32,731 nt of DNA from Synergistaceae bacterium (GTDB lineage Bacteria; Synergistota; Synergistia; Synergistales; Synergistaceae), in NCBI GenBank assembly GCA_031268885.1, contig JAIRWR010000117.1:1-32731 (forward strand), read 5' to 3'. Below the pieces are notes generated by a model. It made no database searches and had not been told where the DNA came from. It saw only the letters and a list, made by a program, of their open reading frames with translations. Shown here piece after piece: positions 4,881-32,122 of this stretch. The position numbers were made by a program, and so were the translations under genes. The stretch's first letter is position 1. Each line of letters begins with the position of its first letter.

Positions 4881-6128
4881 GTGGAGAAGAGAGCGGATCT
4901 TGTTGTGGCGAACGCGAGTGAACTTCTCACGTGCAAGGAGAACTCTCCCGACCTTGTCGGAGTCGTGAGAAACGGCTGGATAGCGGTCAGAGAGGGAAAG
5001 ATCGAGGCTGTCGGAACTAAAGAGGAGATAGAGCCGATGATCTCCGGATCCACGGAGGTGATCGATGCCGCTGGCAGAGTTGTGGCGCCTGGCTTTGTAG
5101 ATTGCCATACTCACGTCGTGTTCGGAGGGACCAGGGTTGGCGAGTACTTCGCGAAGATAGAAAAACTGTCGCCCGAGGAGATCGAAAGGCGCGGAATAAA
5201 GACCGGAATACTAACCACGCTCGAACCGACAAGGGGGCACTCGTTAGAGGACCTTTATAGCGAAACGGCATCGAGGATGATGGACATGATAATCTCAGGT
5301 TCCACTACGATAGAGAGCAAGAGCGGCTATGGCCTCGACAGGGAGACGGAGATAAAACAGATGGAGGTTAACAAGCTGCTCGAATCGCGTCTGCCGGTTA
5401 ATATCGCCTCGACTTTTCTCGGGGGACACGGATGGCCTCAGGACGTCGGCAAGGAGAAGTACATGGACTTTCTGATAAAAGAGATGATTCCGTCTGTGGG
5501 AGAGTCCGGGCTTGCCGAGTTTTGTGACGCCTGGTGTGACGAGGGACACTACACCGCCAAGGAGTGCGAGGCGATCCTGGAGGCTGGCGTGAACGCCGGC
5601 ATGAAGCCAAAGCTGCACGAAGGGGGATATTCCTACATAGGCGGCGCTGAGGTGGCCGCTGAACTTCACGCTGTCTCAGCCGACCATCTCAACTACGTTC
5701 CGAGGAGATCCCTTCGGAAGCTGGCTGACGCGGGAACGACTGGAGTGCCGCTGCCTGGGATAGACTTTGCCGTTGGGCACGACAGGCCCTTCGACCCGAT
5801 CCCCATGGTAGAAGAGGGGTTGGAGATCGCGATAGCGACAAATTGCTGCCCTGGTTGCTGGTGTACATCGATGCCATTTATAATAATACTGGCCTGCCGC
5901 AGGCACGGAATGTCGGCTGAGAGGGCCATTCGCGCCGCGACCTTCGCGGGGGCGAGAGCCCTTGGCCGCCAGGACAGAATCGGCTCCATCGAACCCGGCA
6001 AGGTCGCAGACATCCAGATATGGAACCTCGGTCATTACGCGGACATAGCATATCACTACATGACCAACCCGGTTGGTGTCGTCATAAAGGGCGGCAAGGT
6101 CACTGTGAGGGATTCGAAAATATTGTAA
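4881..6128 (+). CDS. hutI: Imidazolonepropionase-like amidohydrolase
   Basis: This 415-residue protein fits HutI, which hydrolyses 4-imidazolone-5-propanoate to N-formimino-glutamate in histidine degradation. It has the beta-strand metal motif DCHTH (His76, His78), KSGYGL (147-152), TFLGGHG (178-184), a His246 region (KLHEGG), SADHL (266-270) and the C-terminal GSIEPGKVADI. The GTG start is chosen from GAGGAGG eight bases upstream. The usual metal-ligand Asp in the ATD-x-NPG motif is Asn321 here (ATNCCPGCWC), in a run rich in Cys. This is either a family variant or a loss of activity. It is divergent from citDEF with no other hut gene in the window. The family assignment is good; the exact substrate is less certain because of the Asn. 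Confidence 0.82.
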   Translation: MEKRADLVVANASELLTCKENSPDLVGVVRNGWIAVREGKIEAVGTKEEIEPMISGSTEVIDAAGRVVAPGFVDCHTHVVFGGTRVGEYFAKIEKLSPEEIERRGIKTGILTTLEPTRGHSLEDLYSETASRMMDMIISGSTTIESKSGYGLDRETEIKQMEVNKLLESRLPVNIASTFLGGHGWPQDVGKEKYMDFLIKEMIPSVGESGLAEFCDAWCDEGHYTAKECEAILEAGVNAGMKPKLHEGGYSYIGGAEVAAELHAVSADHLNYVPRRSLRKLADAGTTGVPLPGIDFAVGHDRPFDPIPMVEEGLEIAIATNCCPGCWCTSMPFIIILACRRHGMSAERAIRAATFAGARALGRQDRIGSIEPGKVADIQIWNLGHYADIAYHYMTNPVGVVIKGGKVTVRDSKIL

Positions 6129-6262: not shown

Positions 6263-6551
6263 GCAATATTCTCAAATAAATAATGTTGCCAAAGCAGTTC
6301 CCCTGTATCAATTCTCTTAACCTGTCAAGGAGCTATTATTAGCTGTAGATGGGTTGTTGTCTCCTATAAGAGATTTCGACAAAACTATAATTTGAGACTG
6401 ACTCATATTTTAGTTACAGTCCACTGTCGTCAACCTGAGAGAAAAATCCCCAATATGCGTAGGTATACGGTGATTCTGACCTGCCGAATTTAGCATGGAT
6501 AATTTCAAACTTGGAACTCTCAGGCCCTTAAATTGATAACAACATTTACGG

Positions 6552-6577
6552 GTCAATAAAACCAGGGTTTTCTTGAC
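6552..6577 (+). repeat. hix-like crossover site, left (serine invertase type)
   Basis: Two 12-bp half-sites, GTCAATAAAACC and GGTTTTCTTGAC, flank the dinucleotide AG (6564-6565). The dyad extends to GGG/CCC at 6550-6579. The AAAACC-NN-GGTTTT layout is that of the hix/gix/cix sites used by Hin, Gin and Cin. It lies 54 bp beyond the 3' end of the recombinase gene. Confidence 0.65.
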
Positions 6578-6631
6578 CCATATGCAATATATTATCATAC
6601 TTACGAGGATTGACATATTACAAATGTAAGA

Positions 6632-7252
6632 TTAAGTGGAACACTTGATAAATGTTTGATTTTCATTTATTTTCAAGCAAATATTATGTTTATGCAAACA
6701 ATTGTAAAGATATGTTTTTGATATACTAAATTGATCCTTGAGTTTTTTGATGGAGACTCCCGCTTTATAATATGTGATGAGCTGTTCTTGCTGTTTTAGG
6801 GATAATTTTGGGTGGCGACCACAGACAACGCCTCGCTTCCTGGCTGCGGCAAGCCCAGCGGTTGATCGTTCTTTTATCAAATTGCGCTCAAACTCACCGA
6901 AGGCCGCAATCATATGGAATATCAAGCGTCCGGTAGGAGAGGAAGTATCTATCGTCTCGGTTAATGAGTTGATGCGGATTTTTTTCTCCTCAAGCTCTTG
7001 GATAATATTTATCAGGTCTTTTAGCGAGCGTCCCAAACGATCTAACTTCCAGACTACCAGGCTATCTCCCTCTTTTAGTTTTTTGAGACAAGCGTTAAGC
7101 TGTGGCCGTTTCGCCTTGCTCAATCTTCCAGATATTTTCTCAACGTAAATATCGTCCTCTTTAACACCGGCAATTTTTAAAGCGTCCAGCTGAAGGGCTA
7201 AGTCCTGATTGCACATTGAGACGCGAGCATATCCAAATTTTTTATTGCTCAT
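6632..7252 (-). CDS. Hin/Gin/Pin-type serine DNA invertase
   Basis: This 206-residue serine recombinase has an intact catalytic domain: GYARVS with Arg10 and nucleophile Ser12, LDRLGRS with Arg72 and Arg75, and the family block IDTSSPTGRLIFHMIAAFGEFER (101-123) leading into the long dimer helix with KERSTAGLAAARKRG. A helix-turn-helix DNA-binding domain follows (about 148-190). The resemblance is to phage Mu Gin and Hin rather than to Tn3 resolvases. The C-terminal tail is about 15-20 residues longer than in those enzymes. AGGAGG is placed nine bases before the ATG, and a TATAAT box (complement of 7271-7276) lies just upstream. Flanking hix-like sites at 6552-6577 and 7330-7355 suggest it inverts the segment that contains it. 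No Fis-type enhancer could be identified by eye. Confidence 0.9.
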   Translation of the reverse strand: MSNKKFGYARVSMCNQDLALQLDALKIAGVKEDDIYVEKISGRLSKAKRPQLNACLKKLKEGDSLVVWKLDRLGRSLKDLINIIQELEEKKIRINSLTETIDTSSPTGRLIFHMIAAFGEFERNLIKERSTAGLAAARKRGVVCGRHPKLSLKQQEQLITYYKAGVSIKKLKDQFSISKTYLYNCLHKHNICLKINENQTFIKCST

Positions 7253-7290
7253 TACAGCAGTCCTCCTAATATTATAAAGTTTATATCTGC

Positions 7291-7319
7291 TTAACTAGAC
7301 TCTTAAAGTAAAGTATAGT
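7291..7319 (+). promoter_or_regulatory. Outward-reading promoter inside the invertible segment
   Basis: TTAACT (7291-7296) and TATAGT (7314-7319) are separated by exactly 17 bp. They read rightward, across the right crossover site, toward the methyltransferase at 7623. Inversion would turn it toward the gene-free region left of the segment. Two mismatches in the -35 and one in the -10 make it moderate. A ~300-base leader would result. Confidence 0.4.
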
Positions 7320-7329
7320 CAAAAAACAT

Positions 7330-7355
7330 GTCCATAAAACCCTCATTTTTTTGAC
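7330..7355 (-). repeat. hix-like crossover site, right (inverted)
   Basis: Read on the minus strand, the site has core AG and half-site GGTTTTATGGAC, which matches GGTTTTCTTGAC of the left site at 10 of 12 positions. The other half is AT-rich (GTCAAAAAAATG) and matches 9 of 12. Total match to the left site is 21/26 with an identical core. In direct orientation one half matches 11/12 but the core does not match. Confidence 0.55.
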
Positions 7356-7359
7356 CCAT

Positions 7360-7622
7360 CCAAAAAGAGCGTCTTATGGGATAAGCGGTTCAAGGCTTTC
7401 TTTGCGCACCGCCTTTATCGGATTACCATCTCGCCATGGAAGGTAGGAGAGATCGGACGGTTCCGCGTTAGTGAATAGTTACACCCGCGGAATAAAAGCT
7501 CGCAATGAGAGTAGATGCCGCAAGCAACACAGATAAGACAGTTCTATCTGTCAAAAGCGCTTGTTATAACAGTGAGTTGGAGACCGCAAAATTGATTTTA
7601 ATTAGTGAGGTGTCATAATTTC
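7360..7622. other. Leader region upstream of the methyltransferase
   Basis: No gene is seen. There is a 7-bp inverted repeat with a 9-base loop (ACAGATA 7529-7535, TATCTGT 7545-7551) and a perfect 10-bp palindrome, TGTTATAACA, at 7562-7571. Either could be an operator, or the second could overlap a weak local promoter. The last bases carry the GAGGTG ribosome site. Confidence 0.3.
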
Positions 7623-8375
7623 ATGGAAAAACAGAAAAAGCAAAAATGGTACAATGATGGGCTGTCAGCCTTATTTCAAAAATGCTTGACACCATTTTAT
7701 GTATTATCTAAATTTTTTTTCAAAAGATCAATTATTATGGTTGCGTGTATGAGCTGTGATGACGGTGAAGACGTAAAAAAATATAAAAATACTCATGACT
7801 ATGTAAGGTGCCGTACATTAGGACTTTTAGCGGATATATTTAGGAATAATAATCGGGGTAAAGATTATAAAATAGCGGAATTGGGGGTTTTTAGAGGAGA
7901 TTTTGCGGCGCGTATCCAGAATGAATTCCAAGATGAACAGCTATATTTATTTGATACATTTGATGGATTTCCAACAGAAGATAAAGCTTTGGATATTCAA
8001 AAAAAATTCTCTAAAGATTCATTTGAGGTTTCCGATTTTGAATCAACATCGGTACAGTTAGTTTTAAGTAAAATGAAATTTCCAGATAATTGTCATATTT
8101 GCAAAGGAAAATTTCCTCTTTCTGTCACCGATGAACATAAGCAAATTAAATGGGGACTTGTTTCGTTAGATGTTGATTTATATCAGCCAACACTTGAGGG
8201 GCTGCGTTTTTTCTATCCGTCGCTCTTGCCAGGTGGTTTTATTATGGTCCATGATTACAATAATTTAGAGTATGCAGGAGTAAAAAAAGCCGTTGAAGAT
8301 TTCGAAAACGAAGTGTCATATCTTCATAAAATCCCAATTCCAGACAGTCGAGGATCTTTGATAATAGTAAAATAA
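7623..8375 (+). CDS. TylF/MycF-type O-methyltransferase
   Basis: This 250-residue protein belongs to the TylF/macrocin O-methyltransferase family of SAM- and metal-dependent sugar methylases. Visible motifs are the SAM loop ELGVFRGDFA (86-95), LFDTFDGF (109-116), the metal site SLDVDLYQPT (181-190) and HDYNN (210-214). The ATG at 7623 is preferred because GAGGTG lies 10 bases upstream; a GTG at 7605 has no ribosome site. Relatives outside antibiotic clusters methylate sugars of LPS, capsule or glycoproteins, so a surface-glycan role is inferred. The gene is strikingly AT-rich compared with its neighbours and stands alone, which suggests horizontal transfer. Its position next to the putative invertible promoter segment suggests phase-variable expression. 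Confidence 0.85.
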   Translation: MEKQKKQKWYNDGLSALFQKCLTPFYVLSKFFFKRSIIMVACMSCDDGEDVKKYKNTHDYVRCRTLGLLADIFRNNNRGKDYKIAELGVFRGDFAARIQNEFQDEQLYLFDTFDGFPTEDKALDIQKKFSKDSFEVSDFESTSVQLVLSKMKFPDNCHICKGKFPLSVTDEHKQIKWGLVSLDVDLYQPTLEGLRFFYPSLLPGGFIMVHDYNNLEYAGVKKAVEDFENEVSYLHKIPIPDSRGSLIIVK

Positions 8376-31853: not shown

Positions 31854-32025
31854 CAATCTGCCAGAGGAATTGCCTGAAGTCAAAAGAACAGTGGCCGATG
31901 CCGGGTACTACAGTGAATCAGATGTAGACGCTTGTGAAGAGGCAGATATAACGCCATTTATCGCGCCAGGCCGAATGCCGCATAACCGTGATTTTGCGGA
32001 GGAATGTACAGAACCGGAAACGGCA
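31849..32025 (+). pseudogene. Transposase remnant (IS1182-like)
   Basis: The frame reads ...LPEVKRTVADAGYYSES, DVDACEEADITPFIAPGR and MPHN. This matches the stretch around the second catalytic Asp (the 'ADAGYYSE' block) and the following 'GR..HN' of IS1182-type DDE transposases. Only about 60 of the expected ~450-500 residues are present, with no start and no upstream domain. Beyond 32025 the frame continues to a stop at 32097 without recognisable similarity. It marks an old insertion and deletion between the peptidase gene and the right-end gene. Confidence 0.65.
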
Positions 32026-32122
32026 GGCATAAACGTATACTACTACGGCAGGGGCTGGGACGACGACACGATCATCTTTTCTGTCGGAACGCGGTAAAAG
32101 GAAAGGAGGCGATCCGTGTAAC

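Follow-up and report, generated by a model that had tools for sequence, protein, structure and literature searches.

A predicted Hin-type invertible promoter cassette in a Synergistaceae bacterium and its relatives in Synergistota

The arrangement of sequence elements around a small serine recombinase gene in a Synergistaceae bacterium points to a Hin-type self-inverting promoter cassette, a reading to which we assign a probability of about 0.7 and in which the inversion, the activity of the promoter and the identity of the target gene are all predicted from sequence. The stretch of DNA analyzed, termed the window (32,731 nucleotides), is contig C114 of a 2.44-Mb assembly (G000) that is 97% complete. 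The presence of the two recombination sites, their orientation, the identity of their cores, their specificity to one recombinase subfamily and their conservation in relatives are evident from the sequences. The features of the window discussed here are as follows.

4881–6128, plus strand: hutI (imidazolonepropionase), convergent with the promoter-like sequence in the present orientation
6552–6577, plus strand: left recombination site, on the gene-downstream and promoter side, core AG at 6564–6565
6566–7341, no strand: predicted invertible segment of 776 bp between the cores, from the site positions and the relatives
6589–6623, minus strand: promoter-like sequence adjoining the left site within the segment and reading out of it, TTGTAA-18-TATGAT or ATGTCA-16-TAATAT
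6632–7252, minus strand: small serine recombinase (invertase/resolvase type) of 206 amino acids, with Ser12, Ile111 (Hin Phe105 position) and Phe112 (Hin Phe106 position)
7253–7329, minus strand: recombinase gene leader inside the segment, its sequence partly conserved in the C121 paralogue
7330–7355, minus strand: right recombination site, gene-upstream and inverted, core CT (AG on the minus strand) at 7342–7343, outer half degraded
7605–8375, plus strand: gene for a TylF-like methyltransferase, ~270 bp past the right site and perhaps starting at an ATG near 7623; proposed target if the segment is flipped

The left site, GTCAATAAAACC-AG-GGTTTTCTTGAC, is enclosed by a 30-bp dyad (GGGTCAA..TTGACCC, 6550–6579), and the right site reads GTCCATAAAACC-CT-CATTTTTTTGAC, or GTCAAAAAAATG-AG-GGTTTTATGGAC when reverse-complemented, in which form it matches the left site at 21 of 26 positions with the AG core common to both. 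The positions of the two 26-bp sites, the inverted match and the shared core had been proposed in a first-pass annotation of this DNA and are confirmed. Because the site is nearly palindromic, the two copies also match as direct repeats (24/30), but AG is aligned with AG in the inverted reading only, and for a serine recombinase it is the pairing of the cores that settles the outcome. A half-site model built from 12 sites of other elements or loci, with the window sites left out, gives its two highest scores in the 32.7-kb window to the left site (27.9 bits) and the right site (19.4 bits), in that order, with the third-ranked position at 9.7 bits, and the right-site score is reached by none of 2000 shuffled 1.6-kb local sequences; the pair is not a product of chance. 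Across the 2.44-Mb genome, AAAACCAGGGTTTT with at most one mismatch occurs four times, always beside one of two related recombinase genes, one occurrence being the window left site and the other three surrounding the C121 paralogue, and a search for the longer palindrome that tolerates three mismatches likewise finds these two recombinase loci only. An Rfam search of the window gave no match.

The sole gene between the sites encodes, as the first-pass annotation had it, a Hin/Gin-type invertase with the nucleophilic Ser12 intact. The Pfam domains Resolvase (1.2e-43, residues 6–142) and HTH_7 (1.8e-6, residues 145–188) follow each other, and Ser12 lies in an intact GYARVS motif and is kept in all eight aligned proteins. 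An IS607-type serine transposase is ruled out by the position of the catalytic domain, which is N-terminal to the HTH rather than in the reverse order. The gene is under purifying selection, with a dN/dS of 0.09 against the C121 paralogue, which is encoded in the same genome and is 84% identical. The leader lies inside the segment, so the recombinase gene would retain its own 5' region in both orientations.

The nearest solved relative is Mu Gin (PDB codes 4m6f and 3uj3; 48% identity over the 175 amino acids compared), with the gamma-delta and Tn3 resolvases ranking next among solved structures. This ranking is one of three observations that fit the gene being the resolvase of a decayed Tn3-like transposon and the sites being parts of its res region; the others are that the ~50%-identical plasmid homologues include a gene adjoining a DUF4158 protein, a Tn3-type transposase part, and that C121 has two sites upstream of its gene, spaced 71 bp apart. 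Gin nevertheless scores above the resolvases (7e-43 vs 4e-30), a transposase gene is absent nearby among the open reading frames of the window, and sites with inverted cores lie on both sides of the gene in four elements, mostly one per side and not as a three-subsite res. A Tn3/gamma-delta resolvase with its res is rejected as highly improbable on the inverted cores, the single site per side in most copies and the missing transposase.

The likely point of a flip, absent from the first-pass annotation, is the promoter-like sequence that reads outward beside the left site. Taken alone its match is modest (p 0.08 vs shuffles). In each of the eight elements examined, the −10 hexamer of this sequence or its counterpart is 19–24 nt away from the core, and in 7/7 elements with both ends intact one and the same labeled end has the higher promoter-like score, these elements being related and not independent trials. 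In the self-inverting cassette, recombinase dimers would bind the two inverted 26-bp sites and then synapse them, and cleavage at the common AG core, rotation and re-ligation would invert the 776-bp segment together with the recombinase's own gene and the outward promoter adjoining the left site. The assembled orientation would have the promoter reading left, toward the 3' end of hutI, with no co-directional gene there, and after inversion it would read right, toward the TylF-like methyltransferase gene, whose role as the target is a guess from position. The hutI–methyltransferase neighborhood is not conserved, with synteny around hutI lost in G003, G018 and G014 and no element after the G003 hutI orthologue, and thus no conserved target backs a function. 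Elsewhere in the window, positions 1–1320 encode a repeat protein with a Synerg-CTERM tail and two similar ~520-bp units (80–92% DNA identity), cut by the contig end, and positions 31870–32097 contain a short open reading frame that by eye is like a transposase fragment, with no Pfam match.

One half of the right site is degenerate, as the first-pass annotation had cautioned. In this outer half CC is changed to TG beside the core, and it scores 4.1 bits compared with 13.8–15.2 bits in the other three halves, suggesting that the window copy flips slowly or rarely or is becoming locked. The same low score would be expected if the switch were dead here, with the enzyme intact, the degraded right site blocking inversion and the gene kept for C121 or for autoregulation via the upstream site, and the C121 copy in the same genome does have three good sites. 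However, the core dinucleotide and three of the four half-sites of the window copy are kept, the right site remains far above chance and purifying selection on the gene is strong, and we regard a dead switch as unlikely compared with a cassette that can still invert.

A search of 188 Synergistota genomes places the window recombinase in a subfamily of seven members, with two in G000, two in G003 of the same genus, one in G076 of the same family and one each in G163 and G164 of the same order. The first-pass annotation had proposed looking for paired sites around close relatives, and inverted AG-core sites do flank the gene in 4/7 members (the window, C121, G003 C155 and G076 C183), representing three species and two genera, with one site kept at a fifth (G003 C211); the refuting outcome named there, related recombinases without flanking sites, did not materialize. 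The gene neighborhoods of these elements are wholly different and the loci unrelated. Element-specific letters are common to both sites of an element, with AAATC-AG at both ends in G076 and CAAACC-AG at both ends in G003 C155, as expected if the two ends work together. The C121 cassette, which is flanked by genes for a hybrid histidine kinase and a PIN-domain protein, has a further, third site (L004 3654–3750). This site lies 71 bp beyond the upstream one, is in direct orientation with it and bears an inverted copy of the promoter-end sequence. In G003 C155 (L034 5580–6711) a site precedes, by ~25 bp, the ATG of a surface protein that has a signal peptide and a C-terminal anchor. These ~25 bp are mostly ribosome-binding site and too short to accommodate a promoter, so transcription of the surface-protein gene would have to start within the segment or on its far side.

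The exact 12-mer AAACCAGGGTTT occurs 48 times in the 188 genomes, and as inverted pairs within 1 kb it is found in only three of them (G000, G003 and G164), all carriers of the subfamily; by our own arithmetic the chance that all three paired-site genomes fall among the five carriers is ~1 in 100,000. The remaining AAACCAGGGTTT matches retrieved as loci have no inverted partner. Paired inverted sites were also not found at other Synergistota invertases of 30–42% identity, and the arrangement therefore belongs to this subfamily and not to invertases at large. Shortly after one distant invertase homologue (G024:C56, L038 2990–3900) are spaced, CRISPR-like GTTTCAATCCACGCTC repeats. Viral contigs gave distant relatives only and no site matches, and the homologues in phage and plasmid records are all below 60% identity.

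The recombinase genes of G163 and G164, which belong to genus g51, have no sites beside them. Both genomes carry ~300-bp inverted-site segments elsewhere that lack a recombinase. In G164 C47 (L106 4614–4939), a contig other than that of the recombinase gene, a perfect 30-bp inverted repeat of this site type, its copies 266 nt apart with no recombinase inside, has an outward near-consensus promoter (TTTACA-16-TATAAT) just inside one site. Around 260 bp downstream of the segment, on the side opposite the promoter end, is an operon that encodes small secreted proteins together with a surface protein anchored at its C terminus, with paralogous secreted-protein genes at 5203, 5826 and 6449 and the anchored protein at 7042–7899. 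This segment looks like a textbook inverton. A second pair with AA cores is present in G164 C108 (L136 402–726) and is 91% identical to G163 C66 (L139 3206–3535). The opposite orientation was sought between these orthologous segments and not found, both being co-oriented across the two species, and in G164 C187 (L137 3313–3518), where the contig ends ~180 bp inside an inverton-like segment, the state is the same as in C108; no opposite orientation turned up at any locus. The promoter end is directed away from the candidate target gene in four elements (the window, G003 C155, G076 and G163 C66), and these non-serving orientations may reflect an OFF bias or chance.

The dispersal of the elements suggests that the subfamily is mobile. 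Copies are present at unrelated loci in three species, and the recombinase tree groups the G076 copy, from another genus, with the two G000 copies and apart from the G003 copies, which come from the genus of G000 (support 88/94). In G033 two recombinase 3'-end fragments with site remnants (L035 3128–3350 and L036 3141–3336) are located at two loci and are 88% alike over 196 bp; a full gene copy was not found in that genome, and the fragments are possibly non-autonomous derivatives. An apparent deletion junction at AACCAGG in L035 was weighed as a possible trace of core recombination and set aside, as microhomology explains it equally well, since by the codon alignment the gene itself may read AAACCAGG there. 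The same three observations (dispersed loci, tree and fragments) would fit a small element resembling an insertion sequence, its terminal inverted repeats being the recombinase sites and its purpose movement rather than switching. Set against this, inverted AG-core sites predict inversion and not excision, the copies within one genome are old (dS ~1), and the G164 site pairs upstream of genes without a recombinase are unexplained by an insertion sequence. A target-site duplication was not noticed by eye at the outer flanks of the window element, and an empty site was not found via hutI, given the lost synteny described above. Movement as the sole purpose is accordingly judged improbable, and the self-inverting cassette is retained as the preferred reading, with mobility a suggested property of its subfamily.

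Hin residue numbers used here were derived via the Gin alignment and the equivalence of Gin His106 and Hin His107, which we take to hold. Hin requires Fis bound at an enhancer (PMC3798978). The best match to Escherichia coli Fis in the G000 genome is insignificant (E 0.09, 26% identity), making the absence of Fis likely, though not certain because the assembly is 97% complete. Substitution of Hin residue 105 by Ile, Leu, Met or Val gives Fis-independent inversion in vivo (PMC4513852). The equivalent position is Ile or Val in 6/7 subfamily proteins, including Ile111 of the window recombinase, with the G003 C155 protein retaining Phe, and the equivalent of the essential Hin Phe106 is kept in all of them. 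The inversion reaction is probably Fis-independent, given that the genome yielded no Fis homologue and that Ile at Hin position 105 is in keeping with such a reaction. Residues of the Fis-independent type at position 105 may not be limited to this subfamily. More tentatively, and at a little under even odds, the elements could constitute a family of Fis-independent inversion switches that is native to the phylum. A single recombinase subfamily with a single site type would then take two forms at unrelated loci, self-contained mobile cassettes of the Hin kind and invertible promoters without a recombinase, phase-varying surface-protein and modification genes.

Among known systems, Mu Gin acts at sites of gix-type layout, adjoins the inverted G segment and swaps tail-fiber genes, and the hix sequence of Hin is of the AAAACC type. 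The window element resembles this system in its recombinase, which is nearest to Gin among solved proteins, and in the gix-type layout of its sites, and differs in having the recombinase gene inside the segment and in not swapping coding sequence. The closer parallel in organization is with the Hin switch of Salmonella fljBA, in which the invertase gene is within a ~1-kb segment bounded by inverted 26-bp sites with a promoter reading out (PMC3798978, PMC9368917). The window likewise encodes its invertase inside a 776-bp segment with inverted 26-bp sites and a predicted outward promoter. It is unlike Hin/fljBA in that a Fis homologue was not detected in the genome, Ile replaces the Phe105 switch residue, the subfamily occupies several unrelated loci, one window site is degenerate and the candidate target is a methyltransferase or surface-protein gene and not flagellin. 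The ~300-bp segments of G164 and G163, which have an outward promoter and lack an internal recombinase gene, resemble the Mpi-type invertible promoters of Bacteroides, on which a recombinase acts in trans, whereas the window copy has its recombinase in cis and that protein scores 60 bits against a cutoff of 272 in the Mpi family model.

Among the papers searched, none mentions DNA inversion together with Synergistota, and the cassette would, if the reading is correct, be the first lead to phase variation in this phylum, with the exact sites, cores and candidate target genes now defined. It would also provide a natural case of a Hin-like enzyme apparently operating without Fis and carrying, at the position that confers Fis independence in Hin mutants, a residue of that kind, and a single family in which one site type serves both the cis arrangement of Hin and a trans arrangement like that of Mpi.
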